Origin: Paracamarosporium sp. OC-R06-R3
Lineage: Eukaryota > Ascomycota > Dothideomycetes > Pleosporales > Didymosphaeriaceae
Length of the DNA: 64,000 nt
NCBI GenBank assembly: GCA_019828545.1
Contig: JACVRA010000050.1
Location: 124,001 to 188,000 of the forward strand
Reading direction: 5' to 3'
The translations under genes and the position numbers were made by a program. Under the pieces are notes generated by a model, which worked only from the letters and a program-made list of their open reading frames with translations, did no database searches and was not told the origin of the DNA. Position 1 is the first letter of the stretch. Every line of letters begins with the position of its first letter. Shown piece by piece: positions 17,252 through 37,604 of the stretch.

Positions 17252-18410
17252 GCTGGATAAAATACAAAGGCGAAAGCTTGATGTGATACAGACGATGGAG
17301 AAGAACGCTCTACAAACGGTGGAAAAGGAAACAAGTGATCCAAGAGAAATTGAGGTGGAGTGATGCAAGCTGTAAGATGACGATCCGGGGATAGCGTGCC
17401 GGGAGAGGTGAGCTTGTTTGAATGAGGTGGAACCTGGCAGGGGAGATGACGTCACGATTTCCGGAACGCGAATCGCGCGCTCACGTGCAGCCTCGTTATG
17501 ATCGCCTTCGACGATTTAGGACATATCAAATGCCGCCTTTGCCGTCCCCTTCTAGGGATAGTGTCAGGATACAATCTGAGTACTCGCTAAGCTGACAAAG
17601 CACACTTGTACGAGATTGCTACATGAGAGCAGGGGGATAAGCCCTCCTTAAGAGCTCTAGTAGCTAAATCCTACACTTTCAGATTGGAGCTACGTTACAG
17701 TTAATCTATGCTGCCGAAGATCTACGCTTTTATTCCTCCACTAGAATTCGACGCAGCGTATCTCACGGCAGTACTAATCACAGACGACAGTTCTGTCGAC
17801 CACACAATAACACTATTTATGCAGAAACAAACTAGAATAGCTGATGTATCTACAAGCTGCCAAACCCACGTAAAATTTTAGCATAGCCCGCAGCAAACAG
17901 TTCTAAAAAGCCGCCCACCGGCGCAACGTACCTTAATCATACTAGGCGATGAACAATAGTCTGGAGACACAGATAAAAAAGAAACAGATAGATCTACGTC
18001 TACAAAAGCATGCTATATCTAAATAAAATTCGATATGCGACACAACACTTTATGTCCGACCGTGTGCTTTTCGAAGAGAAAGGAACACATGAGAGAGAAC
18101 GACAGCGTATCAGGCGTGTTCGTATTCGCTTCCCCACGAGATTGAACGGCCAAGGTTATAGCGGTAGTCAAAACAAGGTATCGGGATTCATGGTATGGAT
18201 TGGCGTGGCACATAGTTCTTGTATTCCGCGAGTCATGCTTGGAATGACTAGTTGATAATCCCACGTATCTGTTTTACTCAGGAATCGTCTAGAACGTGCT
18301 GTATTTAAACAGGTAGACTGGAATCTTCGTGTAGATGACCACCGACAGATACAATGCCGAATGCCGTACGTGTTTCCTTCCTTCCATACCTCCCCTTTTC
18401 TACCATCACT
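17252..18410. other. Intergenic, CDF promoter side
   Basis: 1.16 kb upstream of the CDF start and downstream of the P5C reductase stop. No gene seen; AT-rich toward the P5CR side. Confidence 0.5.
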
Positions 18411-19387
18411 TCAGTGCTTGCCCGTATTCTCCCTCGTATCATTAACATGCAACTCATCCCTCTCGCTTCCCATCAACCTCGCCAGCGTAACTGCTTCCCT
18501 CAGCGCCTTCCCCAACGCCCCCCTCACGCCCGCTTCCTCCATCACCATGATCCCACCAATCGTGCATCCCTCTGGGCTCGTCCCCATATCCCTCAGCTCA
18601 CCCGGCGAAAGCCCACTCTGCAGCATCTCTGCAGAACCCTTCATACTCTGGTAAATCATCTGCTGTGCGGATCGTCTTGGGACACCCACAGCGACAGATG
18701 CATCGATGAAGGCGTCGCAGATGATGGCCCAGAAGGCGGGGGTTGAGCCGCCTACTGCGGACGCAGCAGGCATGAGACGCGGCGCGAGTTGTACTGTCCT
18801 GCCAAGTTGGGAGAAGATGGCTTCGCAGGTTTTAATGTGCTTATGGGGTGTATCTGGATCAGGATCTTCAATTGCTGTGAGTGACTGTGAAACCAGCGCT
18901 GCGACATTTGGCAGCGTGCGGAGAACCCATGTTCTTTCTTCAGCGCCCGTTGAGCCTTGGCCTGAAGAGATGATTGCTTCAAGGCTCTGTCGTGCCCAGC
19001 CTGCTGCGATGCTGATGATGAGTTTTCCCTTCAAGGCCGCCGCGAGGCCATCTTGTTTCAATGTTGCTTCGATGTCGGCCGGGTCTACACCGAGAATCGT
19101 AACAGATGCATCGCCTACGGCTTGGACATTTTGCCCGTGCGAGATGACTAGTTTCCCAGACTCTTTCTGCTTGGAGAATTGTTTTGATAATCTTTCTTCT
19201 GAGGCAGCGCTGTGCACGCAGGCTATGAAACGAGTAAAAGGGATTCCAGATCCTTCTGGAGCCTCGATCAGGCTTTTTAATATAGCAGTTCCTAGGTTAC
19301 CTACGTATCGATGTCAGGTGATTGAGGAGGGTACTAGTGGGGCATCAACGTACCGCAGCCGAGGATGCAAAGGGTAGAGTCTGCCAT
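18411..19387 (-). CDS. Pyrroline-5-carboxylate reductase
   Basis: Reduces pyrroline-5-carboxylate (P5C) to proline with NAD(P)H. Two exons (19387-19354, 19300-18411); 307 aa. Exon 1 encodes MADSTLCILGCG; the join gives LGCGNLGTAIL, the dinucleotide-binding Gly-rich loop. The C-terminal dimerisation and catalytic domain includes RTLPNVAALVSQ and LMPAASAVGGSTPAFWAI, where the family has a GSGPAY-like block, and SPEGCTIGGI, corresponding to the usual TSPGGTT block. Some of these blocks differ from the housekeeping consensus, so this may be a specialised paralogue. It stands next to proline dehydrogenase on the same strand, at the edge of a proline-related cluster. It could close a proline/P5C cycle or act on a related cyclic imine. 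No PTS1; C-terminus TGKH. Confidence 0.9.
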
Positions 19388-19886
19388 GTTTCGCTGTCGA
19401 TTTCAGTGAAGTGATTTTCTCGTGTAAGAAGAATTGAAATTCTGCCGTTGAAATTGTCAACTGTTATCACTGTTGATGCTGTGAGCCGTTGCTGCTCTTG
19501 TGCCGAAGTCGGGACGGGTGCCTTGCCGATTGGGTCTTTGGTTCCCCCACTTCGCGCTACGTCACTACTACCTTCTTTACTATGACCACAAGAATCGTCT
19601 GTCGTATCGATACGGCGATTTGATTCTGTCTCTATGCCGATAGAGAGGCATCGAAGATCCACAATTTTGACTGTGCAATGTGGGAACTTGCACAATGCTT
19701 GAGTAAAACAATCATTGCTCGATGTACTTAGAGTGTATTCGAGTCTCAAGAGTTATTCGAAGTTACAAGAGGAAATAGAAGAAAAGAATCCAGTCTTCCC
19801 TAAACTAAGGAAACAATACCAGAATACTCATCATAATATCTGTTCATGGATTCATCTGATCATGCTCGTACCGTTCATCCCCTAAA
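19388..19886. other. Intergenic, P5C reductase promoter
   Basis: 499 bp between the P5C reductase start and the proline dehydrogenase stop, same strand. No gene seen. Confidence 0.5.
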
Positions 19887-21418
19887 CTAAGCCCCAAATC
19901 CCACTCTCCTCCAAACCTCCTTCTTCAACGCATTGAACTCATCCTTCGTCCTCAGAACCGCATCTCTGTTCTCCACCGCCCTCCTCAAAAGGTATCCCAC
20001 GCACTCTCCCATGCTACCCCAAGTAGAACATTTGAACACCTCCGGCGCCTTCCCGTCCGCACCCTTCTCCTTCAACAGCGAGAATCCAACCTCATCAGAC
20101 ATACCGTGAAGCTGCGCAAAGCAAACAGGTACAGTTGGTAATCCGTCCTTTTCCCGCTGGGCGTGTAGTCTTTGTGCCGTAATGACGCTCTCCTTATTGT
20201 GGCTGGCGAGAAGCAGGTTAGTGGCAGGGAACGGCCGCGAAACGCCAAAGTCGAAGAGTTTCTGATGGAGAGCACCTTGTGCAATACCATTGTATGCTTT
20301 ATCCGTGTCTTCCTTGGTGTCGTGGATCAGGGAGCGGTCGTCGGAAAGAATGTATGCGCCACGGACGAGCTTCAAGCCCAGGGTGAAGCCATCTTTCTGT
20401 GCCTCGGCTAAGTGTGATTCGAGTACCTTGGGGGTTCCCTTGAGGTAGGCTTGGTATGTATTATAGATTACGACGTCGGGCTGGCGGTTGAACTTGCGCA
20501 TGAGCTCCAGGGTCGTTCGGGCAATGCCCTTCTGGAAGTGCTGGGATTCGGCATCGACAATAATCTTGATGCCGCGCTCTTTGCACCTGGTTGCTACCTC
20601 ATCGAGAGCATCCATCATCTGCTGCGGAGGGAGCTCGCCACGGTGGAATGCCTCGCCCACGGCGACCCCGCCACCGGTGGTCTTGATAGCGAGGATGTCG
20701 CCTTTGCCGATAAGGTCGACCGTGGCGAGGGTGCCAACGCGCCACTCCTCGATCGTAGAATCATGTGCTGATGCAGTCTCTGCTTGCTTCGCCTCGTCTC
20801 CGGGCAATTCCGATGCTGAAGCTTTGTGGTCAAAAACAATCTCCTTTGCGTATGTGAGGATGACGCCCTTGAACCCGAGGTCGGTCAAAGACTTGCAGCA
20901 CGCCTTTGTCTCAACCTCGGACTCGCCTGCACAAAATTGGTTGTAAAGCGTCTTCTTGAGAAGACCGTGGAGGACGGGATTCCGGTCCACGTTGAAAAGG
21001 TAGCTCCGGTCTGGTTTTGCGAAGAAGGATAATAACTTGAGTGAGGGTATCAAAAGGTACTTCTTGGAAGAAATGGTAGCAATGAAAAAAGACCGGAGGA
21101 GCATTTGCAGCGGCATTACTGATCTAGAAACGGAGTCAGAAAAGGTTCGATGTGTCTCCTTTACTAGTACTGCTAGTCAGGTGGCGGGTTAACTCACAGT
21201 GGTGCATCTGATGCTGCTGCCTCTGGGGGCAAGACTTTCGTCGTTCGTGCAGTCGTTATCGTATCGTTACTCGTGGTTGTGTTCGTAGGTGCTCCTACGC
21301 TCCTCGACGGTGGAATAACGCCCGAGTGCCACCGTACCTGGAAGTAAGATACAGTGGCGAGGCCATCCTTTGGTATTATTCTCCGTGAAGTTGCAGTGCC
21401 GACGCGGTATGGTAGCAT
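19887..21418 (-). CDS. prnD: Proline dehydrogenase (proline oxidase), mitochondrial
   Basis: FAD enzyme that oxidises L-proline to P5C at the mitochondrial inner membrane, passing electrons to quinone. Two exons (21418-21198, 21123-19887); 485 aa. Exon 1 is a mitochondrial presequence starting MLPYRVGTATSRRIIPKDG with a Thr/Asn-rich linker. The 74-bp intron uses GTGAGT and TTCTAG, which keeps the frame across LSVMPLQMLLRS; a nearby CAG would not. The TIM-barrel blocks are LGFKGVILTYAKE, IIVDAESQHFQKG, VVIYNTYQAYLKGTP, LGLKLVRGAYI, LLLASHNKESV and VCFAQLHGMSDEV. The C-terminal helix YLLRRAVENRDAV has the RRxxEN motif. Cluster context (regulator, permease, P5CDH) matches Aspergillus prnD. Fungal PRODHs could also act on hydroxyproline; specificity is not visible. 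Confidence 0.96.
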
Positions 21419-22428
21419 GGTTACTCAGGGAACTGTTTCTCGGTGCTCGAGTGTCGAAACGTTCAGTGAGCAACAGCAATAGCAAGAGTGACAGCAAGAG
21501 CAACTGTAAGATATTCAAATCCTCATGTACCCTCTGCAACTATCTACTACGCCCCACTCAAGTCTCCGAACGACCATGACCCCGCATCTCTCGTCAAGCG
21601 ATCTCGGTCGTTCCGTAGACACCGTAGCCCACCCCGTGACCTTCGCATAGTCCTCCCGATAAGCGGCCATACAACGGACAGCCAGCCGATTCGCACACAG
21701 TCCGTTCGTTAGCGTACCGAGCGCATGACACGTGTAGTGTGCGATCGATAATGGAATAACTATCCGGGGATAACAAGGGAGCACCAGAAGTGATGTGGAC
21801 CCTGTGTAGGAGCCGATGGTAGCCTTGCTGACCTGTTTATCGAGCCCCGGGTTATGGCGGGGCATCCTGCATGCGACGACCACTGCCATAGAAGCTCGAT
21901 AGCAAGAGGATGCATTGGCGCTATTGGCACTTGAAGCTTGCGATAAGGTGCTTCGAATTAGATGTCATGGTTTGTGTTGTTTTGTCACATTGGGCAGTGG
22001 CATTGAGGGTGGCAGATCGGAGTGATGGTGATGCTTACAGCATGCGTGCTTTGATTGGCTGCCCGTAATCGTATTCAATTGCCTAATCAAGACTTCGCTT
22101 AAGTATGTACGTTTCGGTGAATGTTGTCTCATTCGCCACCGTTGGACTGGTAATTACTGTGTTGTGTGTGCTTCGTATCGGCAAGTCGGCAAGAAAAGCC
22201 TCTCTGCTATTTACTGAAAACAACCACATGTTTGCCAGGCGATTCAAGATAGCTTGAACAACATGGTATCATGAATCTATTGATCTTCTATGTCTCGGCT
22301 CGTCACTGAAAGCTGACAATCCGTTGAAATGCTACCAGAAACATGTTGGAAGCCTTAATGCATCCAACCCTGTAGTCCATAGAACAACATCCATCTAATC
22401 TCACGCCCAAACTCCAAACCCACCCTCC
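21419..22428. promoter_or_regulatory. Proline dehydrogenase upstream region
   Basis: 1.0 kb between the PRODH start and the stop of the membrane-protein gene. Contains GATA-core sequences such as CGATAAG near 21940 and CGATAATG near 21746, the kind bound by AreA-type nitrogen regulators. Such short sites occur often by chance. No gene seen. Confidence 0.3.
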
Positions 22429-23398
22429 CTAAGCCTTCCCTACCCGTTCACTTCCCTTGGCCTTTTCCATCCCTACCCCACCATCCACTTTCCCATGAAA
22501 CCACTCCCTCAACCCTGTATTAACAATCCCACCCACGCCGAATGCCGGCACGATTCTCGCACACCTCACCGCCGTCGTCCCCAGCAGCCCCCTCCTCAAC
22601 CTCTTCGCTCTCTCTCCCCTCTCCCCCTTCTGCGGATTAGAATATAGATCTAAGCCAAGAAGATGCACAGGCGTAGCCACCACCTGCGAGAGCACTGGAA
22701 CCAAGAGCTGCGCGGCGGCCATCTGCGCGGCGGGATCCGCAATCGGAAACGAGTGCGAGACCATGGGAGGTAGCGTGATAGAGCCTAGGATGGTGATCGC
22801 GTCGCGGGCGAGGAAGGTTGCGGCGACTGATCTGGGGAACTTTGTTGGGCTTTGAACTGGGGGTGGTGCCTTAGCGGGAGGGTTGTTGACAGGGCCTGTG
22901 GGCGGTGTTTTGGTGCGCCCGAAGGTCTGCACGAAGCGTATGTCTTTCCATACGCCCAGCGGAACGTTGACGATGCAGGTTGCAAAGAATGTGAGTGAGT
23001 TTGCGAGAACCTCGTGCGATCTGTCCATGAAAGTGCTGGTAAGGCTGTTCACACTGTTTGCGGTTGTATATGTGGCTGCATAAAGGGTCCACATGTAGAG
23101 GAAAGGTTTTGCGACGAAGAAGCGTCGTGGGTAGCGGAAGGTGCAAAGTATGTTTTCTTTCAGGGCGGTCGATAGAGGCCGGGTTGTTGAGGCGACATTT
23201 TCGACAACGGCTCTGTACAAGGTTATGCTATGGTCATGTAACAATGCAATGAGATGCACACCTGTCTATCGCCGTGAGAACAGGTGATATGAGTGTTGCG
23301 GAAATGAAAGCTGCAGAGACATCGCTCGCAAGGTAGCCGGGGAGAGCGTTGTTTCGCCAACCTCGATTGAAACTCCGAGACTCGACTAGCTCCGTCAT
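22429..23398 (-). CDS. Membrane protein of unknown function in the proline cluster
   Basis: Two certain exons, 23398-23262 and 23212-22429, joined across a 49-bp intron as TAIDR|AVVENV; 306 aa from the ATG at 23398. Several hydrophobic stretches (for example the helix before NVPLGVWKDIRF, and SVAATFLARDAITILGSITL) suggest a multi-pass membrane protein. Other blocks are VLSQVVATPVHLLGLDLYSN and IVPAFGVGGIVNTGLREWF. I recall similar uncharacterised fungal proteins, but no function. The 5' end is unsettled: the open frame extends upstream to about 23485, and an ATG at 23607 encodes MRFWNEAIEPGRT, which looks like a plausible family start. No canonical GT-AG pair that I could find joins the two in frame. 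It is not a mitochondrial carrier (no PxDxxR repeats). Confidence 0.7.
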
Positions 23399-23607
23399 GA
23401 GAAAGGTGATGGAAAAGAGAAGGACCAGCCTCTGACTTCCAACAATATCAAAACAAATCGTTCGCAACAGTCCAGGCGCATGCACCTAGTCGCCGCAGTG
23501 TATGTGTACGTAACGCAAACAAAGCCTCGTCACCAACCGATGTCTTGAGATTGTCGGCAAAGCAGTCGCGTCCTTCCAGGCTCTATTGCCTCGTTCCAGA
23601 AGCGCAT

Positions 23608-23921
23608 CGTGACCTCCGTTAACGGTATGCTATCATGCAGACAATACGAAACTCAACGGCAAGCCTTCCGTTGGCGCAGATGTGCGCATCGGAAGCCCAA
23701 CCGTGCCCCACCACTAGCGCAGCCAAACCCCCTCCATATCGATACCACAGGATCCATATTCCGATTATTCCGATGCCGGTCATCACAGCATGGCCTGATG
23801 ACCATTGAAGCTCTTGTAATATCTCTGCGTCTTGCTGCCGTTCAAGTATCCTACATTCCGTAGCTTCAACGGCCACTCTGTACCCAGCTTTCCATCCTTG
23901 CATTTACATCTGTTGTTAGCC
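23608..23921. promoter_or_regulatory. Divergent promoter, membrane protein / FAD oxidase
   Basis: About 310 bp between outward-facing starts of two cluster genes, suggesting shared control. No convincing individual site. Confidence 0.4.
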
Positions 23922-25291
23922 ATGACACTCCCCAAGAGCGAACCCATTGCCATCATTGGCGGCGGTGCTTTTGGTCTATCTACTGCTCTCGAGCTCTCCA
24001 GAAACGGATACACGAACATCACTGTTTTCGAGAAAGATGAGGAGATTCCTTCGCGCTGGTCTGCTGCGAACGATTTGAATAAGATTGCGAGAGCAGAGTA
24101 CGAGGATGATTGGTATACCGACCTTGCTATTGTATGTCTTGGACCCAGATTTTCTATATAGGAAACAATGGCTAATGAAGAATTTAGGAAGCGATGAAAG
24201 AATGGCAAACGCCCTTCTATGCGCCTTACTTCCACCGTGTGGGTTTCCTGAACTGCTGCTCAGAAGCTGCACCCCAAAAGGCCGTCGACACAATGAAGCG
24301 GTTTCAGGCTGCTGCAGAGCGGAGTTCAACTATGAAGCCTTTCGTTTCCAATGTCAATGACCGCAAGGATCTCCTTCAAGCATGCTGGCAATTTACTGGC
24401 AAGCTGCCCGGATGGAGAGGTTACCTCAACAGTTACGACGGATACGTGCACTCTGCAAATGCCCTTCGCGGCGTCTACCGAGCAGCGCGGTCCAATGGTG
24501 TCCGGTTTTTCCTCGGCGAAAAGGTTGGCGCCGTGAAGGAGGTTGTGTACGAGAACACAAGCCGAGGACGGAAGAGCACCGGTATTCGAACCCAGGACGG
24601 CCGTGTCCACGCCGCGTCCCTTGTCATTGTAGCTGCAGGAGCAGCCGCCCACAAGATCGTTCCTGAGATTGGCACCAACGTATCAGCCAAATCATGGTCA
24701 GTCGGCCATGTCCGTCTTACTGACGACGAAACCGCTGCGCTGCGCGGCATCCCTGTCGTATATGCGCGTGATCTTGGATTCTTCTTCGAGCCGGACCCGA
24801 AGACTAATCTGCTCAAGTTATGCCCTATGGGTGGCGGCTATGTCAACACAGATCCTGCAAGTGGTGTGTCAAAGGCGCCGGAAGCAGTCAATCGATTTGT
24901 GCCGTACGAGGACGAGCTAAAGATGAAGGAACTACTTCGACAAACACTCCCGCATCTTGCGGATAGGCCGCTCGTGGAGAAGTCACTATGCTGGTTTGCT
25001 GATACCGACGACTCTGACTTCATTATCGACTATGTTCCCAAGACATCGTCCTCCGTCATGATAATGACAGGTGACTCGGGCCACGGCTTCAAGATGTTCC
25101 CCATCGTGGGCCGCTGGGTTCGTGACCTATTGAACGCTTCTGGGGATCAGCAGCCAATCAAGAGGTGGCGATGGAGGGAACCAAAGCCTGTAAATGGCCA
25201 GACTAGTCAGGATGCGGATGTCAGTTGGCGTGTTGGCGATGTGAGGGAACTTCGCGATCTATCGGAGAGTCCCGTGAAGGCGAAGTTGTAA
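23922..25291 (+). CDS. DAO-family FAD-dependent amine/amino acid oxidase, PTS1-tagged
   Basis: Flavoenzyme that should oxidise the C-N bond of an amino acid or secondary amine, producing H2O2. Two exons (23922-24131, 24188-25291); 437 aa, the length of fungal amadoriases and pipecolate, saccharopine or sarcosine oxidases. The N-terminal Rossmann motif is PIAIIGGGAFGLSTALELS with acidic VFEKDEE; then SAANDLNKIARAEY, typical of amadoriase/pipecolate-oxidase-like members; near the C-terminus GDSGHGFKMFPIVG. It ends KAKL: AKL is a peroxisomal targeting tripeptide, as expected for an H2O2-forming oxidase. Within the cluster it may handle a proline-related amine (pipecolate, N-methylproline, a D- or epimerised hydroxyproline, or fructosyl-proline); the substrate cannot be told from sequence. 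Confidence 0.88.
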
Positions 25292-25682
25292 TGACGTGAG
25301 CAATGTAGTTATGATTGCATAATGCAGATTAGAGCGTGTGGTAGACAACCAATTTCTTGGTCTCTTTGAATTTTGACCCGTTATAATGATCATTTCAGCC
25401 AAGGTTGCATTTCGCTGTCTGGTGATTGATATCACTTTCTGTACCGCTTCATACCGCTGCAGTACGTTGTCGAGGTTTCCCGAATGCTGATATTTCCAAA
25501 AAGAATTATGAAAACACCTTAGCGTGATGCCTATGGAACATCCCTCAATACCAGATACATCATAATCGACCTCTGCATAATACGTGCTGAGGTAACACAG
25601 AGAGGGACACGCGAGTAAAGCTCTACCAAGACTGTATTCGGTCAATTGGCTGCTAATCCCGACTCATAAAGATATTGACTGT
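25292..25682. other. Convergent 3' region, FAD oxidase and regulator
   Basis: 391 bp between two facing stop codons; no gene seen. Confidence 0.5.
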
Positions 25683-28570
25683 CTAGATTGGGTGTTGCGG
25701 GTCTACCATCTGATAGGTATCCATAGTCGCAAACGTATTGAACCAATCAGTACCACCTAGATCCATTGATTCTGCAACAGCAAGGATCTGCTCAGCACTC
25801 AAATCGTCGCCGAACCCGCTGCTTTCGTCGCTGAATGCAGTGTACATTCCCATAGCTTCGGGGTTCATCATCGTTCTTGGTGATTGGGTATCCGGAGGCA
25901 TAAAGTATCCGTCCGGTGGTGGTTGGTGCGGTCCAACAGCTTGTTGATGTGGGAGGGGCGCGAGGGGTTGGAGTGGCGGGTACTGCTGTGGAGTTCTGTT
26001 CGCTGAATATTCTGACAGCATCTCTTCCAACTTGCGCAGCTCTGCGCATCTAAATTCGGCGATTTTATTCCCGTTAGACGTCATCGCATCTAAGAATGCA
26101 AAGGCTTTGTTTAACCAAGCAGAACTGTTCTCGGATAGGGAATCGTCAACAAATCGAATGAGAACGAGGATCATCGTGGATACGAAGAGCGCGTCTAAAT
26201 CCCAAGGGAGAAATGTTTCTGGTAGCTTCGTCAGCTTGTGGTCAATAATCATCCATCACTCATCTATAATACCTAGTAAGTCTTGATCTTGCAGGCTCTC
26301 AAGTATGTTCAGAATCTTCTGTGATGCGTCCAGCGACATGGTCAACAGAGGTCTAATTTTTCGAGATGACACCAGCGCTCCAACCTCTTTTGGAGATTCA
26401 AAAGCCTTCTTTAGACAACAAAACAGCAATGGTCTCGTCGTCACGACGATGGTCTATGTGTTTTTGTTAGCAAGGAACGATATGCAGGATTCTGTGTGTG
26501 GCTGCAAACTGCGCTTTTATGGGATGCGCTGCTACGCCCCTCGATAAGTGCAGCGCTTCAAAACTGATATGTGCGGTAATCGTAATGTTTGCCACACGAA
26601 CAATTGACGTACCTGATAATACATGAGATGTAGATGCGCAGGCATCCTTGATATGCCCCCGAATCGTTCATCCGAGTGCAAAGGAAAAGAATTCCGTAAC
26701 TCTTCTGCAATTGCTGCCATGTCGTCGAGCACGGATTTGATGCTGATGACAAACTTCTTACGAAGACGGCCTTTCGAGCCATAAACACCTGCATTGTGTC
26801 AATCAATCGACCGACACTTGACGCGATTAAATGACTGTGTATTCCCCGGCAGGATAAAACGACCTTGAGTATGATCCTTGAGACCTCGAAGGCACACACA
26901 TAATAGCGAGCTTGACTTACTCCGCGCTATGTCCGCATATATACGTGCGAGCTTGATCTGCATTCTAAGTGCTGCAGTTCTCTGAGTAGATCCAGGAAAG
27001 TGCGTGAGCTGGCACGTTATATCGTCATCTCGTATGGATTGTGGAACTCCCATTTGCGAACTCATCTGTCGGTCAAGAATGTAGATGGACCACCATATCC
27101 TGCGACATCGCTGAACGTATGCATCTCCAAGTTCTGAGACCGGCATATCGGTGTGCATGCCCTCGGCTAGTGCTATTCGCATTGCTTGGCCTATCTGCGT
27201 ACTGTTCAGCGAGCGTGATATATGGGAAGGAAGGGGCACCATACAGTTACATGTGCTGCGTTACGAGAATCTAGTGCTTGCAAGTAAAGTGCGATACCGC
27301 ACAGTATCTCGGTTGCTACAAGCGGTTCTCGGCACAATCGGTTGGTATCGGGGAGTAATTGGAGTGCATGAACAAAAAAGTCGGCACCAGGCGGTTTAGA
27401 TTCTCGGTGTTTGCGTTGTACGAGCGTCCTTCCGAATGCAATGATAAGTAGAAACTGAATGTACCACAAGCTACCGTTCAGCCTATTGGGTTCTGTATTC
27501 CCGTAGAAGGCATGCAGCTTAGCGTTGAATTCCTCCTCGTCAAACAAATGTACCAGTTGGCCGCAATGGAATTTAACGGCGTTCAAGAGGAATATAGCGT
27601 AGTCGATACTTGGAATGACAGGCGCTGCCGTTTCCGGGAGACTGCGGGAGCCGTCCTGAATTCGCAAGTCAGTAAAGCACAAATGGGGAACATGCGACCG
27701 TACCCATGGAAGATCATAGGCTGAGCCATCAAAAAGCATGTCGGCTCCTGGTAAAGGAGTACTACGAATATGTTGGTGAACTACATTCAACACCTGACCA
27801 TGGAAAGACCAATTCGATGAAGTGCCGAGATAGACTTTTTTTCGTCAGTGATCTCCTAGTCTTGATGAGATCTTCGAGACTCACAAGCCTTCCCTGAAGA
27901 GGATGACATGAACTTAGACGGTGACTCAAGTAGAGGGTTCGTCAACTCATGACCCTCCTGATTTCCTTGATCGGTTTTTGGAGAATTCTCTCGTGTTCCT
28001 GCAGGACTCGATCGAGACGTCTCGCGGGTATCATGACCGCCAGGCCGAGGGAGTTGTAAAGGATGCTCCTGGCGTGAGCTGCTAGCTTGAGCTTGTTCTG
28101 CAGGGCCATGTTCTCGAGAGTCTTGAGGTTGCCCAGGGGTAGTCTCTGGATTGCTTTGACTTCGCTCGAAGCGGGCGAGTTTCTGTTGCAAGTCGGAGAG
28201 GTAGCTGGGAATAGTCAGCTTGGATAAATAGAAAGACAATGCCGAATCAATGTCACGGGCATCTGCATTCGCATCATGCATCTTGATGGGATACAGGTGT
28301 GCGATCCTAGGCAAGGTTCGAGGAGTGGCACTTACCCCTGTGTGACTAACACCTTGTTATCCCGATCGTCGAAAACGCAGCTTAGGCTGCGCTTGGTGCA
28401 GTTGGCGCAAGGTTGCAGACCTGAACACTTGATCTTTTGTCGTCGACATCGTGAGCACCTTGATCCAATGATAAGCGTCTAGTTAGAGAGAGCACAATTG
28501 TCAGATGAGCCATACGCGTTGGATGATCGCTTGGATGCGCGTCGCTGTTCACCGGAGTTTGCCATGGCAT
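25683..28570 (-). CDS. Zn2Cys6 transcription factor (candidate prn-cluster activator)
   Basis: Nine exons (28570-28553, 28478-28336, 28204-27885, 27834-27704, 27655-27245, 27194-26921, 26788-26613, 26453-26273, 26218-25683) sum to 2190 nt, 729 aa. Binuclear zinc cluster near residues 14-40: CSRCRRQKIKC-SGLQPC-ANC-TKRSLSC, spacing C2C6C5C2C6C. A short heptad-like linker follows (YLSDLQQKLARFE), then a Ser/Gln/Pro-rich stretch, then a fungal_trans middle region (FYLGTSSNWSF, CRRIWWSIYILDRQMS). The C-terminus is Pro/Gln/Asp-rich, a likely activation region. The first exon (18 nt, MPWQTP) rests on splice signals alone, so the start is the weakest part. Its place inside the cluster parallels PrnA of Aspergillus, which activates proline-catabolic genes; orthology is inferred from position only. 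Confidence 0.85.
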
Positions 28571-28990
28571 GCATTGTAGATGTCCATCACCAGCAACGGC
28601 TTGGACTCCGTTGACTGTATACGGCTATAGACGGTCTGATCTGATGGGAATGGCGTGAATGTCGAGGTCAGGCGTCACGGATTTGCGGGGAAGGCGCTAG
28701 TGAGCGCTTTGACAGAAGGCACACGACTCATCGTATCTTTTGACCTACGTACGTCTATCTCTGTATCCTTCAACATCCGTATGCTCGCAACACTTGTTCC
28801 TTCAGACCACATGAAGTCTCCGCATTGTGCAAATTCGTATTCGGAACTTGTGGAGCCCTATCGCCGCCACAGGAAGATGTATCCTAATCGAGTCTAGTAT
28901 GAAGTGAATACGCACATCGGCCCAGCCGAAAATCCATCGGGACCCTACCCGACCTCCAGATATCGCGATGGCAAACGACCCAGCAGATGT
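28571..28990. promoter_or_regulatory. Upstream region of the regulator gene
   Basis: 420 bp between the regulator start and the aminotransferase stop, same strand. No gene and no clear site seen. Confidence 0.35.
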
Positions 28991-30370
28991 TCACAAGTGC
29001 GATGACGGCGCACTCGTCACTTTGACGAGGGCCGAGGCTACACGCTCCAAGTTGGACTGATTCAGACCCGCTACGTTGATGCGCCCGTTCTGCAGCATGT
29101 GGATGTGGTGTTCGCTGGCGAGACGCTCGCACTGCTGTGGGTTCAGAGGCAGGAAGCAGAACAGCCCGTTGGATGACAGAATCGAGCTCCAATTTCCTTG
29201 GGCCTGATTACAAGTTAGCAACGCTTATCCAGCAGAGCATAGAAATACTCACCTTGCGCTTGTCGACCAGTTCCGCGTGCAGTGCCTTTCTATTGTCCGC
29301 AAGACGCCTCTGTATCGTCGCCAGCTCCGTCTCCCAGTCTTGCCTCAGCTTGTCATCGCTCAGTACAATATCGACCAGTCGTGATCCATACGCCGGACTT
29401 GACGAAAACTCCCACCGGATCAAGCAGCGCAACCGCTCGTACACTTTAGAAGCGACCTCTTTATCCTCGCTCACTGCATGGAGCACCCCAACTCTTTCGC
29501 CATATAGTCCAAAGTTCTTCGAAAAGGATTGACAAGCGAGTAGTTCGAAGCCTTTACTTGCGAACAATCGCAGCCCGTATGCATCTTCGTCTAGAGAAGC
29601 CCCAAGGCCCTGGTATGCCATGTCAAATAATGGGAACAACTTTTTCTGCTTCATTACATCAGAGAGCTTGTCCCACTGTGAAGGCGAGAAGTCAGCGCCA
29701 GAAGGGTTGTGGCAGCAGCCTTGCAGCACAAAGATGCTTCCTTCGGGTGCTTGTCGTGTCGCTTCCAGTACAGACTCAAAATCAACGGTTCCGGTTGACG
29801 GGTCGTAGTGTTTGTAGTTTACCACCTCGAGACCCACGAGGTTGAAGAGCGGCACGTAGTTTCCCCATGCTGGTGTGCCAACGTACACCTTCTTGTTCTC
29901 GAATGCGGGGGTGCGCGAGAGGAATAGCGCACCGAGATGTATAGAACCGGTGCCTGATATGGCCTGGACAGACGTGACTTTCCCAGAGTCGAGAATCGGT
30001 GCGTTTGATCCGAACAGTACGCGCGCGGCATTCTTCAAGAACTTTGCATTTCCGGTCGTGACTTCGTACTACTCTTTGTCAATATACGAACTCAGCTTGA
30101 ACTGTTTGCTAGGAACATACGTCGTGGTTTGCATCTTGCTGTGCTAGGATTTGCTTCGCCTGCGCTCAATTAGCTAAACGCCTTTGCTATAGTCTCTAGT
30201 CAGATCAAAGTACATACCGCCTTCAACGCGCGAAGCTCATGATATTGCGCCTGCTCATTTCTATACACGCCAACACCAAGATCGACCTTCTCAGGCGAAG
30301 TATCCGCGCGCACCCTCTGCGACAACAAATAGACTGGGTCAGCAGGGCTGGGAGCAACGGTGTGAAACAT
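28991..30370 (-). CDS. Aspartate-type aminotransferase with peroxisomal C-terminus
   Basis: PLP enzyme of the aspartate aminotransferase family. Four exons (30370-30218, 30159-30121, 30068-29253, 29203-28991), 406 aa. It starts MFHTVAPSPADPVYLLSQR with no presequence, then VDLGVGVYRNEQAQYHELRA. Other family blocks: ISGTGSIHLGALFL, VYVGTPAWGNYVPLF, VLQGCCHNPSGADFSP (where typical family members have CAHNPTG), FPLFDMAYQGL, and the PLP-lysine loop SFSKNFGLYGERVGVLH. It ends SSHL*, and SHL is a PTS1-type tripeptide, so it is probably peroxisomal. In known hydroxyproline degradation an aspartate aminotransferase converts 4-hydroxyglutamate to 4-hydroxy-2-oxoglutarate. A neighbouring aldolase and P5CDH make that the natural role here. 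It could also be an ordinary peroxisomal Asp/oxoglutarate transaminase. Confidence 0.93.
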
Positions 30371-30854
30371 GACTGCTGAATATACTGAAAAGTAAACGAA
30401 GATGAAGACGAAAGCAATATGGTGAGATTAGAACTTTGACTTCACTATGTTGCCATACACTTGCATGTATACATGTCTGCTTGGATATCCTGCTCTAGCC
30501 GCGTTGGGAGCAGGCCGTGGGGCTAGAGCTGTACGGCCGGGACATGTCCCGATTTCTGGGATGTGCGCGTCTCGGTGGCGAAATCTGGGGACGCGAGCGG
30601 ATGCTCTGGCTGCGGTTCGACTGGCGCCCGCTAATTCTCCAGCGGAAGCCCTACGCATAGTATGACCGAGACTACACCGCGTAGTGCGATGCTGCACGGA
30701 CTGACCGGAAAACTTGAGAACACTGACATGCCTGATGGAGACTGTATTCCTCTAGGAAAGTCTATCGTCTTCTCTAAGTTTGGGACTGCTCCACATCTCT
30801 GACTCGGCAGTTCCTATGTGCCCACCATCCTCTTCACCTCACCATCCTATCCGC
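30371..30854. other. Aminotransferase upstream region
   Basis: 484 bp between the aminotransferase start and the permease stop. GC-rich centre, no gene seen. Confidence 0.4.
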
Positions 30855-32795
30855 TCACTTCTCCTCATCCACCTTCTTTCCTCTCCTAAAGCACCCCCCA
30901 AACATATTCCCGACATCCCTCCAAAACCCTACATGCTCCTCCACAAGCGAATCCTCATACGCATCAATGACCGGCTTATCCCAGATCAAATCCGCCTCAC
31001 TCGCCTTGATAAACTTCGTCTTCTTCCAGAGTTTCCAGCCAAGGAACAACACCGGATCAACCAACAGCATCATGTAGTACGTGAAGAAATCATCGACGGT
31101 GAAATTGCCCGGCAAGAACGTAGTATATCCGTAGCATGTAACCACGCAGGTGAGGAACGCAAGAGGGATGTATGCGCTCCAGGGCTGGAAGCGCCCGAAG
31201 TAGGGAAGCGTCCGGCGATCGAGGCCCTGCGCCTTGCACGCGCGGTAGAAGAAAATGAAGTTGATGCAGATGACGATGTAGTCTATGATTTGCGCGCCGG
31301 TGATGATGTTCGTGAGCCAGGTGAGGACCTTGGAGGACCCTGAGGAGGCGTTTAGGAAGGCGAGGAAGGGGAATAGGATCACGATGCAGAGGCAGTAGAT
31401 CGGGACGCCGGCTTTTGTGCATTTGCGGAGGAAGCGCGGGGCTTGGCCTTCGATGGCAAGGCCGTAGAGGGACCGCGTGCCGTAGTAGGTGTAGGCGTTT
31501 CCGGCGGAGAAGATGGAGGTTACGAGGAGGGCGTTTGTAAGGTGTGGGAGGCCTTCAATGCCGAGGTCTTGGGGGTGATTAGTTGGTTCAATGGTGTATA
31601 GGGATGAATGGGGAGACGTACTGTTCATGGCGATAACGTAGGGCGATGCGGCGGCGGTTCCGGCACCGCCTGCCTTGCCGCTGAAGATCTCGACGAGAGT
31701 GGTGTTGTTGTATGGGATCACGATGCCGACGCACAGCGCGCTTCCGATGAAGAATAGACCGAAGCGGGCATACGTCGCCTTGAACGCCTGCTTGAGATAC
31801 TTCCTTGGGCTCTTGACCTCACCGGCGACCATGGACACATACTCTGGTCCGACGACGGTAAACGCCGCACTCCACAGCGCTCCAAGGAACCCTTCGAACC
31901 GACCCAAAGGCCCAGTCGTAATGTGCTCTGCGAACGACCCGGGATTTTTCCAGTATCGGAAGCCGTACTTGTCGTGCTTGGGGTTTCCGCCGACCATGGT
32001 GATGAACGTGAATGAGAAGAGCATTATCAGGAGAAACACTTTTCCTAGGGCAAGCCAGAACTCGCATTCTCCGTACCACTTCACTACGAAGGCGTTGATG
32101 CAGAAGTACAAGACGATGCAGGCAGCTACGACGGCTTCAACGGGTATATCATCGCGCCAGTAAGATAAGACGAGGTTCAGTGCCGTAATTTCAAAGGGGA
32201 CGAGAATAGCTTCGTAGATGAAGAAGTCTAGGGGTTGTTAGTCTCGCCGGATGGATGCGTGTTGGGAAGATGAAGACTCACTCCACCCGATCATAAAGCC
32301 TAGTGCTTCGTCGACCCATTTTCCAGACATGCGAATGAAGCCACCGGTCACGGGCATGTACGAGCTCATTTCGGCCTGACAGTTGTTGACGAGGCCGAGC
32401 ATGCACGTGTAGATTGTATAGGCGAGGAACAGGCTGCCTGGCCCGCCTTTGAGCAGGCCGCTCGAGATGGAAACGAAGGTTGCGGTGCCGATAGAGCCAC
32501 CTAGAGTATATCGTCAGTACGTGTGCATGGTGCATGTCTCTCACGTGGTGAGTAACCCCTGAAGGGTGAAGAGGCTTGCATCGGTCGATGCGAAGACAAT
32601 CTTCGGAGTAAATATGGATAGATCAAACTCACCGATGGCAATCAACTGCAGCTGACGATTACCCAGGTGCCGTTGCAGCTCATCTGCGTTGCCGACATGG
32701 CCCTGGTATACGCTCTGGTCGGCGACGGTATCGACAGGATAAAGATCCGCATCGGCCGAGACATCGACGACCTTCTCGTTCTTGTTGCCGTCCAT
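30855..32795 (-). CDS. prnB: Amino acid permease (AAT family, prnB-like)
   Basis: Plasma-membrane proton symporter for amino acids. Four exons (32795-32633, 32500-32282, 32227-31622, 31567-30855), 1701 nt, 566 aa. The hydrophilic N-terminal tail starts MDGNKNEKVVDVS and ends LQRHLGNRQLQLIAIG. It is followed by GSIGTATFVSISSG (TM1 loop of the family), TYYGTRSLYGLAIEGQAP and twelve predicted helices. The C-terminus is IDAYEDSLVEEHVGFWRDV. The third intron (GTACGT...CAAG) is 54 bp and its frame is open, so an unspliced form would also read through. Located between the aminotransferase and aldolase, it is the expected uptake step for proline or hydroxyproline; specificity is inferred from context. 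Confidence 0.93.
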
Positions 32796-33367
32796 TGTCA
32801 ATGAAAGGCCTCAGAACGATTGTTCAGAGATGAGAGAAAGATGAAAGGTGAGGGTTGAGAGTGGAGATGAACAGCTGGGGAAAGCGGTCGCACGCCTGGT
32901 ATACATACTGTTCACCCTCCCGTGTAGAGCACCGCCATGCACGGGCCTGGCCCAGACCTGGCACATGGCGATTTGCCCAAATTTGGTAAAGACTAGCTGG
33001 TTTAGGGTGAGAGTGTAGGGATGGCTGTGGGGTGGAAGGGATCCGGGGGTGGGATCCCAGTCTTTTGGCGTTTGGTATCAGATGCGGGGATCGGCGGCGG
33101 ACCCGGTGAAAGGGTTGGTGGTGGGTGGCAGATAGAGAGATGGTTGCCGGCAACGGACCCGCTTCATCAGCACGGCGACATAGTTTGGATGGACGATTAG
33201 CCACTGACGTAGCGTGCTGGGCTGGGGTCTGGGGAAGATAGATCGAGACTCTTTTAATGCGAATAGTGGAGAAATGGTATCCAATTGTTCAACTGTCTAT
33301 TTACATGTTGGTCTAGGCAGATATCTAGAAAAAAAACAAAAAACGATGAGAAGCCTAAGACACAAAT
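32796..33367. promoter_or_regulatory. Permease promoter region
   Basis: 572 bp between the permease start and the aldolase stop. G-rich patches such as CCGGGGGTGGG resemble CreA-type (SYGGRG) carbon-catabolite sites, but the match is short. No gene seen. Confidence 0.3.
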
Positions 33368-34342
33368 CTACAATCGAGCCGCTATTTTTGCGGGCGACCC
33401 GCCCAAGCTCTGCTCAATCTTAGCCACCTCAGCCATGGTAGACTTGACCCGCTCCTTGATAGGAGATGCAGGTTCAAGATAAGGCCTGCGCGGCCGCAGC
33501 AGCGCAACGGCGTTATCAATTCCCGCGTATCTAGCACTGTGTATCGCAGCCGCGTACTTTGTCGCGGCAATGCCGGCCTTGATGGGCTGTTCCGCTAATG
33601 CAGCCTTCTGATGCAAGGCCAGAGCCTCATCGTGCCGGCCCTGCTGCCACAGGGCGTATATGTGCGAAATGGTCCTAGGGAAGACATTGGCGAACGCGGC
33701 AATGCACCCGCTCGACCCAGAGGTCAGGCCGCCGAGGATAAAGTCGGATTGCCCGCCGAAGACTGCGAAGCGCTCCTTGGGAAGAGCAGCCGCCAGGCGC
33801 GTGATCTTGGCGACTGAGCCGCACGTCAGCTTCACGCCGACGATGTTGGAGTGACGCTGGGCAATGGTGGCGATGAAGTCGGACTGGAGGTCGACGCCGT
33901 TGCAGACGCCGGGGAAGTTGTAGATGACGATGGGCAGCTGGCTCTTCCTCGCAACATCGTCGTAGAAGGCTTCCAGAACCTGGGGCGTGGTGGCGGCTCC
34001 AAAGTAGGCGGGCGGGAGCAGCAGGACGGAGTCTGCGCCGGCATCTGCAGCGTCGGTCACGTGCTGCAGGACCTGGCGGGTGCTGTGGCCGCCCACGCCA
34101 GCCATGATGGGGAATTTGGGGCCGACGGCGCGTCGTGCAGTTGCGACGAGCTGCTTGCGCTCTTCTCGTGTCAAGAGAAACGTCTCTGCATTCGTGCCCA
34201 GGACGACGAGCCCAGCGAGGCCCGTCGTGGAGAGGTAGTGGAAGTACCGCGCCTGCGCATCCAGTGCGAGCTCGTCTGTGTCGGGGTCGAAGAAGGTGAC
34301 GGCTGGGCACCAGACGCCGCTGGGGGGGACGATGCTGGGCAT
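33368..34342 (-). CDS. DapA-family aldolase, candidate 4-hydroxy-2-oxoglutarate aldolase
   Basis: Class I (Schiff-base) aldolase of the DHDPS/N-acetylneuraminate-lyase family. Single exon, 324 aa from MPSIVPPSGVWCPAVTFF; the upstream open extension is not family-like. Motifs: GTNAETFLLTREER (GTxxE phosphate-loop-like motif), catalytic Tyr at ~141 in IVIYNFPG, and Schiff-base Lys at ~171 in VGVKLTCGS. Fungi make lysine by the aminoadipate route, so true dihydrodipicolinate synthase is unlikely. Context (P5CDH, aminotransferase) points to 4-hydroxy-2-oxoglutarate to pyruvate + glyoxylate, as done by HOGA1 of the same family in animals. The main alternative is a 2-keto-3-deoxy-sugar-acid aldolase such as GaaC. 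The protein ends KIAARL; ARL fits the PTS1 consensus, suggesting peroxisomal location. Head-to-head with P5CDH. Confidence 0.9.
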   Translation of the reverse strand: MPSIVPPSGVWCPAVTFFDPDTDELALDAQARYFHYLSTTGLAGLVVLGTNAETFLLTREERKQLVATARRAVGPKFPIMAGVGGHSTRQVLQHVTDAADAGADSVLLLPPAYFGAATTPQVLEAFYDDVARKSQLPIVIYNFPGVCNGVDLQSDFIATIAQRHSNIVGVKLTCGSVAKITRLAAALPKERFAVFGGQSDFILGGLTSGSSGCIAAFANVFPRTISHIYALWQQGRHDEALALHQKAALAEQPIKAGIAATKYAAAIHSARYAGIDNAVALLRPRRPYLEPASPIKERVKSTMAEVAKIEQSLGGSPAKIAARL

Positions 34343-34831
34343 GATTTGGCTGGCAGATGGACTTGGGGCACTTGGACGGGTAAGAAGAGCAGGGCAAGAT
34401 GAATGGCAAGACGGATAGCAAGGCAAGGCAGCGTCGGCGGGCACTCTTCAAGAAAAGACAGCACAGTGCAAACATTTCATTTCTACATCCACCGTGGATT
34501 TCCGCGATGCCGTGCTGCGGTGCCCGTTGCGAGCTGCTTGACGACATTCGGCTTCCCTCCCGATGGTTAGCGACCTGGGGTAAACACGATAACCCCCAGC
34601 CGGCTCCACTTCCTACGCTACGGACGCCCGACCGAGCGTGCAGCCACCCCTGCGAACACGTCCTGGCGCATCAAGTGGAGTGAAGGAGGGGTTGCGAGCA
34701 TCCCGGGCACTGATCCCGTCGCTTTCCAACGGCACCGCGCTGCGACTTCGGCTCGTCAAACGGCTGGCCAGCAATGAATACTTCAATGGCTCTGCGCTGC
34801 TCACAATGGCCCATCACTATACCCGCACATC
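34343..34831. promoter_or_regulatory. Divergent promoter, aldolase / P5C dehydrogenase
   Basis: 489 bp between outward-facing ATGs of two genes of the proposed pathway, so co-regulation is likely. It holds a CTGGGG...CCCCAG inverted repeat around a GATAAC core and another GATA core near 34411. Confidence 0.6.
34575..34599. promoter_or_regulatory. Inverted repeat with GATA core in the divergent promoter
   Basis: Arms CTGGGGT and AACCCCCAG face each other over 25 bp and enclose GATAAC. CTGGGG fits the CreA consensus SYGGRG in both orientations, and GATAAC fits a GATA factor. This is the architecture expected for carbon/nitrogen control of proline catabolism, but binding is inferred. Confidence 0.35.
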
Positions 34832-36621
34832 ATGTCTACCTCTCTTCTGCGATTGAGGCCTATTGCTTCCCGGAACGCTTCTCTGCGTCTCCGCCCCTCA
34901 ACCCAGATCCGCACAAAGACCACGGCGAATGCCACAGTCCCATTCCAGCTCCCCCCGGAGCGGAATGAGCCCAACCCTACCTACGAGAGGGGCTCACCCG
35001 AGCGGGCTGAGATCGAGAAGGCCTTGAAGGAGCTTCAGGCCCAGATCCCCCTCAAGTCCAACGTCTTCATCAACGGCACAGCACAACAATCATCCAAGTC
35101 ATGGGACCAGGTCTTGCCTGCGGAGCACAAGACCGTCTTCACCAACAACCCTCTGACCTCCAAGGAGCAAGTTGCCGCTGCCATCGATGCCGCTCTCAAG
35201 GCCAAGAAGTCATGGCAAGACACTCCCTTTGTGGACCGTGCAGCTATCTTCATCAAGGCCGCTGAGCTCGTCACCAAGAAGTACCGCTACAAGCTTATTG
35301 CCGCGACCATGCTTGGCCAGGGCAAGAACATCTGGCAGGGTGAAGTCGACGCCGCCGCCGAGCTAGCTGACTTCTTCCGTCTCAACACCAACTACGCCGC
35401 CGAGCTGCTAGGCAGGCAACCCTACCGCGGCAGCGACGGTATGTGGTCTCGTTTGGACTACCGACCACTTGAGGGTTTCGTCTACGCTGTTTCCCCCTTC
35501 AACTTCACTGCTATTGGCGGTAACCTCATTTCCGGACCCGCCATCATGGGCAACGTCGTTCTCTGGAAGCCTTCCCCCGCCAACGTCTACGCCAGCCAGA
35601 TCGTATACGAAATCCTCCTTGAAGCCGGTCTTCCTCCGGATGTTATCCAGTTCATCCCCGGAGACCCAGAAGAGATCAACGAAGTCATTCTGAACCACCG
35701 CGACTTTGCTGGTCTCGGCTTCGTCGGCTCTTCAGATGTCTTCCGCCAGCTTCAAGCCCGTGTTGGCCAGGGAATCGGTAACCACACTTACCGCGAGTTC
35801 CCCCGTCTTGTTGGCGAAACCTCCGGCAAGAACTTCACCCTTATCCACCCAACGGCCGATATCCCCTCGGCAGTCAAGCACACCATCCGCGGCTCCTTTG
35901 AGTACCAAGGCCAGAAGTGCTCTGCCACGTCTCGTCTCTACCTCCCAGAGTCTCGATCAAAGGAGTTCCTCGACGCCTTCCTGGCAGACGTAAAGACCAT
36001 CACTCAGGGCAACCCGCACAAGGACCTTGCGGCCTTCATGGGCCCCGTCATCCACCGCCGCTCTTTTGACAAAATCAAGGCTGTTATCGACGAGAGCAAT
36101 AACGACTCCTCGCTCAAGCTTCTCGCTGGTGGAACCTACGATGACTCGGAAGGCTTCTACGTCAAGCCCACTGTCTACCTTGCTGACTCGCCCGACCACA
36201 AGCTTTTCAACTACGAGATCTTCGGCCCTGTGCTCGCGATCCACGTCTACCCCGATGCCCAGTGGCCGTCCATCCTCGAGAAGGTCGACCAGGCTGGCGG
36301 CGGTTTCGCGCTTACCGGTGCGGTATTCGCCAACTCACGCACGGCCATCCGTGAGGCCGAGGATGCGCTCCGCTACTCGGCAGGAAACTTCTACATCAGT
36401 AAGTTGTTCGCTCATTTACATTCCAGTCCAACTTCTAACATCCAACAGACTGCAAGACCACCGCCGCACTCATCGGCCAGCAGAGCTTTGGTGGCAGCAG
36501 AGCCTCGGGCACCAACGACAAGGCCGGCAGCCCCAACACGCTCCTGCGCTTCACGACTCCTCGTCTCATCAAGGAGGAGTTCTTCCCTCAGACCGAGTTC
36601 TGGTACCCCAGCAACAAATAA
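34832..36621 (+). CDS. prnC: Delta-1-pyrroline-5-carboxylate dehydrogenase, mitochondrial
   Basis: NAD-dependent aldehyde dehydrogenase (ALDH4 type) that turns glutamate semialdehyde/P5C into glutamate. The same enzyme handles the hydroxylated form, giving 4-hydroxyglutamate. Two exons (34832-36398, 36449-36621), 579 aa; the phase-1 junction reads FYI|NCKTT. The N-terminus MSTSLLRLRPIASRNASLRL is a mitochondrial presequence. Motifs: VYAVSPFNFTAIGGNL and NVVLWKPSPANVYAS (NAD binding), LVGETSGKNF (the general-base region), SFEYQGQKCSATSRLY with catalytic Cys, and NYEIFGPVLAIHVY. The C-terminus is WYPSNK, with no PTS1. It is divergent from the aldolase gene, and is the prnC counterpart of the Aspergillus proline cluster. 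Confidence 0.97.
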
Positions 36622-37604
36622 GTTACTTGCGAGTAATGGTTATGTGACATGACTATATTAGGTTAGATTAGATTACCACAGTCTGTATGTGGACGATGCA
36701 TTTCGGGCGTTTTTCTTCTTCCTCGTCTTGAGACTGGCATTTGTTCCTACTGAAGCCGGGCGCTGGGGTCTTGGGAACGACCAAAAGGGATCTGCTCGAC
36801 AACTTTGTAGACTAATTCACAATGTTTTTCATATTCCTTCAAGGTGGACAGTGCTCAATAACTGGTTTCAGCTAATGTGATGTGATGTTTCCGTTTCACC
36901 GTCTGGTGCGATCTGCAGACAACGGGAAAGTTTGCAGATGTGATGCTGCACAATTTTCTCTCGTCACATTATCGCTCACCGGGGAGTGCTGGATGGTGAT
37001 CAGGCTGCTAATGCATGTGCGGAGCGACTCCGCTCGGCTCGAAGCGAGGTTTTGCTCGGCGGTGCGCTTTGTAGACTGCCATTGCAAGAGAAGGGAATGA
37101 GTTTTCGTCTTTCCTGTTATTAATGACTGCAGTAAGACTACCTCTACAATACATGGCGTAGGTTCTGTTTCGGCCTTCAGGAGATCCATGGTATAGCCAA
37201 GATCTGATAAGATCAAATTTTCGTCTAAGGTAAGATAAGCGAGGAAGCTATGACGCGCAACAAGGATGTGCCGCCGGTGACGTCCGCCGGTTCGTTCACA
37301 AGGTAATTGAGCTAAAGAACCTCGGGGCTCCATCATGGCGGCGGCGCTCCTGAAAAATGCAAGTTCCTATTCCCACAATGTGAAACGTCTGCGGTCGGGC
37401 TGTCCCTTCATTCTTCTCTCGTTCAATTGCTGTATTCTTGTGTGTTTGTTTCGCATCGCTACCGCCCATCACTCCGACCACGCGCCTTGCAGCAGATCCG
37501 AAACGACATAAGAGGCACGATTGCTTCCGTTCAGCGCACTCCACGCTTCTCCTACCTGTTCGCGCGACTCCAGCGATCGTATCCCGCGGCATTATATCGC
37601 GACC
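36622..37604. other. Intergenic at the right edge of the proline cluster
   Basis: 983 bp between P5CDH and the second CDF gene; no recognisable gene. Probably holds the P5CDH 3' end and the CDF promoter. Confidence 0.5.

Follow-up and report, generated by a model that had tools for sequence, protein, structure and literature searches.

A nine-gene cluster in Paracamarosporium sp. OC-R06-R3 as a likely regulon for 4-hydroxyproline catabolism

We analyzed a 64,000-nucleotide stretch of the Paracamarosporium sp. OC-R06-R3 genome (NCBI GenBank assembly GCA_019828545.1; contig JACVRA010000050.1, positions 124,001 to 188,000 of the forward strand; hereafter the window, whose own numbering is used below) and studied nine adjacent genes at 18411-36621 with a predicted role in hydroxyproline breakdown. 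The left end holds three minus-strand genes: P5CR, of the pyrroline-5-carboxylate reductase family (18411-19387; 307 aa, one intron); PRODH, a (hydroxy)proline dehydrogenase (19887-21418; 485 aa); and MEM, a membrane protein with a mitochondrial-carrier fold (22429-23398; 306 aa). They are followed on the plus strand by FAD, a flavo-oxidase resembling fructosyl-amine oxidase and sarcosine oxidase (23922-25291; 437 aa), and then by four further minus-strand genes: REG, a Zn2Cys6 regulator (25683-28565; 731 aa, eight introns); AAT, an aspartate-aminotransferase-like protein (28991-30370; 406 aa); PERM, an amino acid permease of the AA_permease family (30855-32795; 566 aa); and ALD, a DapA-family aldolase (33368-34342; 324 aa). 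The plus-strand gene P5CDH, a glutamate-gamma-semialdehyde dehydrogenase (34832-36621; 579 aa), closes the cluster, and MEM|FAD and ALD|P5CDH form divergent pairs.

Intron positions were set by hand from the sequence by the GT..AG rule. In the reconstructed models all nine genes are complete, with GT..AG introns and a single terminal stop each, and eight of the nine proteins match the expected families: REG carries the Pfam domains Zn_clus and Fungal_trans, and the families P5CR_dimer, Pro_dh, DAO, Aminotran_1_2, AA_permease, DHDPS, and Aldedh are found among the other proteins. The exception is MEM, for which Pfam gave no match even at E <= 1, Mito_carr included. The original prediction, which had named these nine genes as lying side by side, is thus confirmed. 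The assembly totals 43.1 Mb in 337 contigs, and loci elsewhere in it are referred to below by contig (C24, C67, and so on).

We scanned the cluster for inverted, everted, and direct pairs of CGG with spacers of 0-15 (48 motif classes). Promoter regions were delimited from the hand-built gene models, and the 3′ region between FAD and REG (25295-25682), which holds no CGG-N8-CCG, was excluded. In the resulting 4.0 kb of promoter DNA, CGG-N8-CCG occurs 11 times and in all seven promoter regions: once in front of P5CR (19515-19528), PRODH (21675-21688), and AAT (30538-30551), and twice in the MEM|FAD divergent promoter (23657-23670 and 23690-23703), the regulator promoter (28597-28610 and 28938-28951), the permease promoter (33092-33105 and 33148-33161), and the ALD|P5CDH divergent promoter (34549-34562 and 34621-34634). 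The density of 2.75 sites per kb compares with 0.22 per kb in the rest of the window and 0.37 per kb at 16 other loci of the genome; six more sites fall within coding sequence of the cluster (0.42 per kb). Among 1000 dinucleotide shuffles, the mean number of sites was 0.81 and the maximum five, and none reached 11 or hit all seven regions; the best of the 48 motif classes likewise never reached 11. Random real segments, drawn in 5000 sets, gave 1.35 sites on average and at most eight, and no set matched the cluster. Of the spacers 0-20 other than 8, none gave more than four sites in the cluster promoters, and no 8-mer common to at least five of the seven promoters was found. With CGG-N8-CCG in all seven promoter regions, those of AAT and ALD included, the nine genes appear to constitute a single regulon, in line with the earlier suggestion that one regulator could control them, and we infer that REG binds the motif.

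The best solved match to ALD is PDB 3qfe (463 bits, 67% identity over 309 aa), a putative dihydrodipicolinate synthase (DHDPS) family protein with the same active-site loop; its listing gives no function, and its chain stops before the C-terminal extension of ALD. The Schiff-base Lys171, Tyr141 of the YxxP motif, and the loop T-N-A-E (T-N-x-E, resembling the S-N-x-E of HOGA1) are retained, and in 24 relatives the loop and the two residues show little or no variation. From these residues we propose that ALD may be a 4-hydroxy-2-oxoglutarate aldolase. A function as DHDPS was rejected because the DHDPS arginine is missing and the score on the NCBIfam dapA model lies well under the cut-off (126.6 against 206 bits). 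The genome holds a close paralogue on C54 (62% identity) without the C-terminal extension. FastTree, with HOGA1 as the root, places this paralogue outside the 120 listed homologues of ALD, and the node excluding it has a support of 0.96. Scans of genome contigs for relatives of ALD in bacteria gave no match.

The best solved matches to AAT are mitochondrial aspartate aminotransferases (308 bits), and in the alignment to the mitochondrial enzyme the pyridoxal-phosphate lysine and both carboxylate-binding arginines are retained. We propose that AAT could act as a 4-hydroxyglutamate:oxaloacetate (or 2-oxo acid) aminotransferase. A sister cluster on C67 (C67:121101-140900) contains the second-best paralogue of REG and the best paralogue of AAT (54%), together with an aldolase of the HpcH/HpaI family, an oxoprolinase, a D-Glu_cyclase-family protein, and, by eye, a major facilitator superfamily transporter. 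All six CGG-N9-CCG sites in its 19.8 kb fall in three divergent promoters, and N8 sites number two; the N9 pattern was reached in none of 2000 mononucleotide shuffles, with the promoter limits being approximate and drawn after the sites had been seen. That relatives of REG and AAT are here combined with a different type of aldolase is an argument for aminotransferase plus aldolase being a functional unit.

In PRODH, an alignment to Escherichia coli PutA (E 0.0036) together with an alignment to the protein's own paralogues places Cys439 at the position of Tyr540, the residue that enforces proline over hydroxyproline in PutA (as cited in an excerpt of PMC3718742). Homologues were searched with an alignment of the three paralogues of the genome as the query, and the best 120 matches were all of the window type, with none of the types found on C76 and C24. 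Among them, the gate position is Cys in 118, Ser in two, and Tyr in none; 109 Cys and the two Ser were counted by pattern, while the other nine, mostly fused gene models, were read separately as Cys. The paralogue on C76 has Tyr and the one on C24 has Ser. Judged from the alignments, the replacement of the proline-enforcing Tyr by Cys439 agrees with the flavin-dependent, hydroxyproline-tolerant PRODH anticipated for the hydroxyproline route, but it is equally a trait of the whole clade, in fungi whose enzymes are annotated as proline oxidases. One homologue, from Fusarium circinatum, bears the source label "aspartate aminotransferase cytoplasmic"; an aminotransferase gene next to it might explain the label, or simply a naming error. 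P5CDH passes NCBIfam TIGR01236 (685.7 bits against a cut-off of 613.6) and scores low on models of 2-oxoglutarate-semialdehyde dehydrogenase. P5CR scores 106 bits on PF14748 and 194.4 on TIGR00112, just under the cut-off of 196.75; a second copy is present on C85.

The protein termini suggest a division between compartments. The N-termini of PRODH and P5CDH are, by eye, arginine-rich. AAT, ALD, and FAD end in SHL, ARL, and AKL, consistent with [SAC][KRH][LM], the C-terminal peroxisomal tripeptide rule (PTS1). In the 120 listed ALD homologues, 46 of the 50 that are at least 320 aa long end in a PTS1-like [SAC][KRHN][LMI], compared with five of the 70 shorter ones, and their last stretch varies freely while the terminal tripeptide is kept. 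Such ends are found in 13 of the 15 ALD homologues located on one contig with MEM or PRODH (six of 15 under the strict pattern) and in none of the 120 MEM and none of the 120 PRODH homologues used as controls. On the evidence of these termini, the last pathway steps have probably been moved into the peroxisome.

In structure prediction, MEM models as a divergent mitochondrial carrier of three repeats and six helices. The canonical SLC25 motifs PX[DE]XX[KR] were not found in it, just degenerate P-containing repeats read by eye, of which P39, P130, and P227 are invariant in 46 sequences. Based on the model, we propose that MEM could be a carrier of (hydroxy)proline or 4-hydroxyglutamate. The matches to the FAD oxidase point to fructosyl-amine and sarcosine oxidases and give no further hint of its substrate. 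The first transmembrane segment of the permease (window 32600-32800), read by eye, has the motif GTA, and a review of yeast amino acid transporters has GTG; because of this difference, the permease may belong to an uncharacterised branch.

To assess the conservation of the arrangement, we compared the homologue lists of MEM, ALD, and PRODH, using the best 120 matches of each. Shared contigs were called by hand from equal longest-contig sizes; nine of the 13 MEM and ALD matches carry species names, and these agree in all nine. Within these lists, at least 29 contigs hold two or more of the genes: at least 13 MEM and ALD, at least 21 MEM and PRODH, at least nine ALD and PRODH, and at least seven all three. 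ALD lies on the same contig as MEM or PRODH in at least 15 relatives. Short contigs are among those shared, with lengths of 23.8 and 51.3 kb for MEM and ALD and of 30.3 kb in two cases (one MEM and ALD, the other ALD and PRODH). Among the matches listed, the closest named ones come from Karstenula, Paraphaeosphaeria, and Kalmusia, with identities of 78-82% for MEM and, in Karstenula, 90% for ALD; Karstenula and Paraconiothyrium belong to Didymosphaeriaceae, Pleosporales. In Paraconiothyrium brasiliense, the tags of ALD (SLS60_003064) and PRODH (SLS60_003070) are six apart, the same as the step count in the window, and in Paraphaeosphaeria minitans MEM and PRODH have adjacent tags (002790 and 002791). 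The Kalmusia tags are N0V90_001802 for ALD, 001808 for MEM, and 001809 for a model in which P5CR and PRODH are fused. Domains of both P5CR and PRODH are found together in 11 of the 120 listed PRODH homologues, as expected where neighbouring genes have been annotated as one. The genes could in principle have been adjacent only by chance, but since the block genes share contigs in Pleosporales relatives and a single promoter motif runs throughout, the arrangement exceeds chance proximity.

All four enzyme classes of the animal 4-hydroxyproline route are present in the cluster, and the families of PRODH, P5CDH, AAT, and ALD jointly fit a route that turns 4-hydroxyproline into glyoxylate and pyruvate. 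The chemistry put forward in the original prediction is probably right, and we consider it likely that the nine genes are controlled together and serve to break down 4-hydroxy-L-proline, and probably proline as well. The permease would import the amino acid, and a mitochondrial PRODH would oxidise 4-hydroxyproline to 3-hydroxy-pyrroline-5-carboxylate, from which P5CDH would form 4-hydroxyglutamate. AAT would then transaminate this to 4-hydroxy-2-oxoglutarate, and ALD would cleave the product to pyruvate and glyoxylate. The last two enzymes would act in the peroxisome, where glyoxylate is usable, with the carrier-fold MEM passing a pathway substrate or product through the membrane of an organelle. 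The FAD oxidase might act in the peroxisome too, on some related secondary amine, and REG would act through CGG-N8-CCG at every cluster promoter, its own included. Pathway chemistry is a further argument: for a retro-aldol cleavage to follow P5CDH and a dicarboxylate aminotransferase, C4 must bear a hydroxyl, which only a 4-hydroxylated proline provides.

The animal route (PRODH2/HYPDH, ALDH4A1, GOT2, and HOGA1) matches the cluster in its four enzyme classes and in the order of their chemistry, and its PRODH similarly lacks the gate Tyr, having Ser where the fungal protein has Cys. Its middle steps lead from P5CDH through aspartate aminotransferase to HOGA1. The fungal genes differ from it in being clustered under one regulator and in the peroxisomal-type ends of AAT and ALD, and the cluster adds a carrier, a permease, P5CR, and a flavo-oxidase. 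As described in an excerpt of PMC13155685, HYPDH oxidises trans-4-hydroxy-L-proline and the route ends in glyoxylate.

Several observations weigh against this interpretation. The DHDPS chains 6t3t (114.9 bits) and 4i7u (110.7) slightly outscore human HOGA1 (103.9) against ALD, which is only 30% identical to HOGA1, and AAT passes NF006719, a subfamily named "aromatic amino acid transaminase" by NCBI. The strict PTS1 pattern is passed by only 26 of the 50 long ALD homologues. P5CR and the FAD oxidase are hard to place in a hydroxyproline route. PRODH of the Cys type occurs across Pezizomycotina (Aspergillus, Penicillium, Colletotrichum, and Fusarium among the matches listed) and is often named proline oxidase; Cys may thus be the ordinary state of the fungal proline enzyme and makes a weak proof of hydroxyproline use.

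The last observation lends itself to a different explanation, that of a proline cluster with extra genes, in which PRODH, P5CDH, and the permease serve proline, AAT converts glutamate to 2-oxoglutarate, and ALD travels along while acting on an unrelated (sugar-acid) substrate. It can draw on the presence of P5CR inside the cluster and the nine DapA-family matches in the genome as well as, more weakly, on at least eight Aspergillus and Penicillium matches in which MEM and PRODH share a contig without ALD being among the best 120 listed. We nevertheless regard it as unlikely: the promoters of ALD and AAT bear the same CGG-N8-CCG as the rest, the contig sharing of ALD with MEM or PRODH recurs in at least 15 relatives, on C67 the paralogues of REG and AAT occur beside an aldolase of another family, and a Tyr-type PRODH exists elsewhere in the genome, on C76.

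The known proline systems of fungi share part of the gene content. The prn cluster of Aspergillus nidulans (prnA, prnX, prnD, prnB, and prnC) likewise links a regulator, PRODH, a permease, and P5CDH; an excerpt of a review covering prn describes the PrnA sites as inverted CCGG-N-CCGG or direct CCGG-6/7N-CCGG and, unlike what is seen here, mentions no aldolase, aminotransferase, or hydroxyproline (PMC5983819). Put3 of Saccharomyces is, similarly to REG, a Zn2Cys6 protein, activating genes for PRODH and P5CDH through inverted CGG repeats, with a site given in an excerpt of PMC5729217 as CGG(N10)CCG. The spacing in the cluster differs from both: the seven promoter regions contain neither the Put3-type CGG-N10-CCG nor CGG-N1-CCG, the core of the inverted PrnA site. 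The genome also holds a separate set of PRODH (with Ser at the gate), permease, and P5CDH on C24 (C24:548001-567000). The earlier view of the cluster as a prn core with two enzymes added finds no support in these results. By eye, the C24 set also includes RidA-like and Zn2Cys6-like frames.

The hydroxyproline reading leaves room for a different starting compound, since the enzymes fix the 4-hydroxy group but not its stereochemistry. The true substrate might be another 4-substituted proline or glutamate handled by the same chemistry, such as the cis isomer or 4-hydroxyglutamate of plants, and the C67 sister cluster with its oxoprolinase could start from a pyroglutamate. In plant walls and animal tissue, however, trans-4-hydroxyproline far exceeds all other compounds of this kind, and we find such a substrate improbable.

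Bacterial clusters for trans-4-hydroxyproline consist of an epimerase, a D-hydroxyproline oxidase, a deaminase, and a 2-oxoglutarate-semialdehyde dehydrogenase, and they share with the block the use of hydroxyproline, as proposed here, a DapA-family protein, and a DAO-family flavoprotein. A route of this type, with the FAD oxidase acting on D-hydroxyproline and the DapA-family protein being a 1-pyrroline-4-hydroxy-2-carboxylate deaminase, finds some support in these shared superfamilies and in the Pro_racemase-family genes on C306 and C245, the only two such matches genome-wide, the former next to the best REG paralogue; we reject it as the main reading and find it very improbable, given that none of the nine cluster genes is an epimerase, that the aldehyde dehydrogenase is instead a P5CDH with low scores on the semialdehyde models, that PRODH and AAT are left unexplained, and that the gene on C245 looks by its Cys/Thr pair like one for a trans-3-hydroxyproline dehydratase.

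Returning to the hydroxyproline regulon, we put forward a broader and more tentative proposal, to which we give somewhat less than even chances. In Pleosporales, the end of an animal-like hydroxyproline pathway may have moved to the peroxisome, releasing glyoxylate where it is used; a new carrier family that goes with PRODH across Pezizomycotina may connect this end to the mitochondrial steps; and the pathway may have been rewired through duplication of a regulator-aminotransferase-aldolase module, the regulators of the copies recognising their own targets by N8 or N9 spacing of CGG. Plant extensins and animal collagen are rich in hydroxyproline. As sole nitrogen source, it supports slow growth of A. 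fumigatus (from an excerpt of PMC2526178). Among the titles and opening parts of abstracts in the open-licence PubMed Central literature, we found no fungal hydroxyproline gene cluster. With this cluster come enzymes that can be assayed, a possible organelle carrier encoded next to PRODH, and a regulator for which a binding site is predicted; the breakdown of hydroxyproline in humans, the source of glyoxylate in primary hyperoxaluria, is an obvious system to compare it with.

Two further loci contain genes related to proline derivatives. The best paralogue of REG, on C306 (C306:662000-679000), is 45-49% identical in its best two exons and adjoins a short-chain dehydrogenase (SDR) in addition to the Pro_racemase-family gene; the latter has a Ser/Cys pair and its top score, below the cut-off, is on the trans-3-hydroxyproline dehydratase model. 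The Pro_racemase-family gene on C245 (C245:117500-127400) has a Cys/Thr pair, which we take to mark a trans-3-hydroxyproline dehydratase. It lies beside an OCD/mu-crystallin protein whose best model, below the cut-off, is the pyrroline-2-carboxylate reductase family, and by these assignments the two genes look like a trans-3-hydroxyproline pair. Finally, the nine-gene cluster itself is flanked by two paralogous cation-efflux (CDF) genes, at 15875-17515 on the minus strand and 37512-39242 on the plus strand, which both point outward and are 43% identical over 299 aa.

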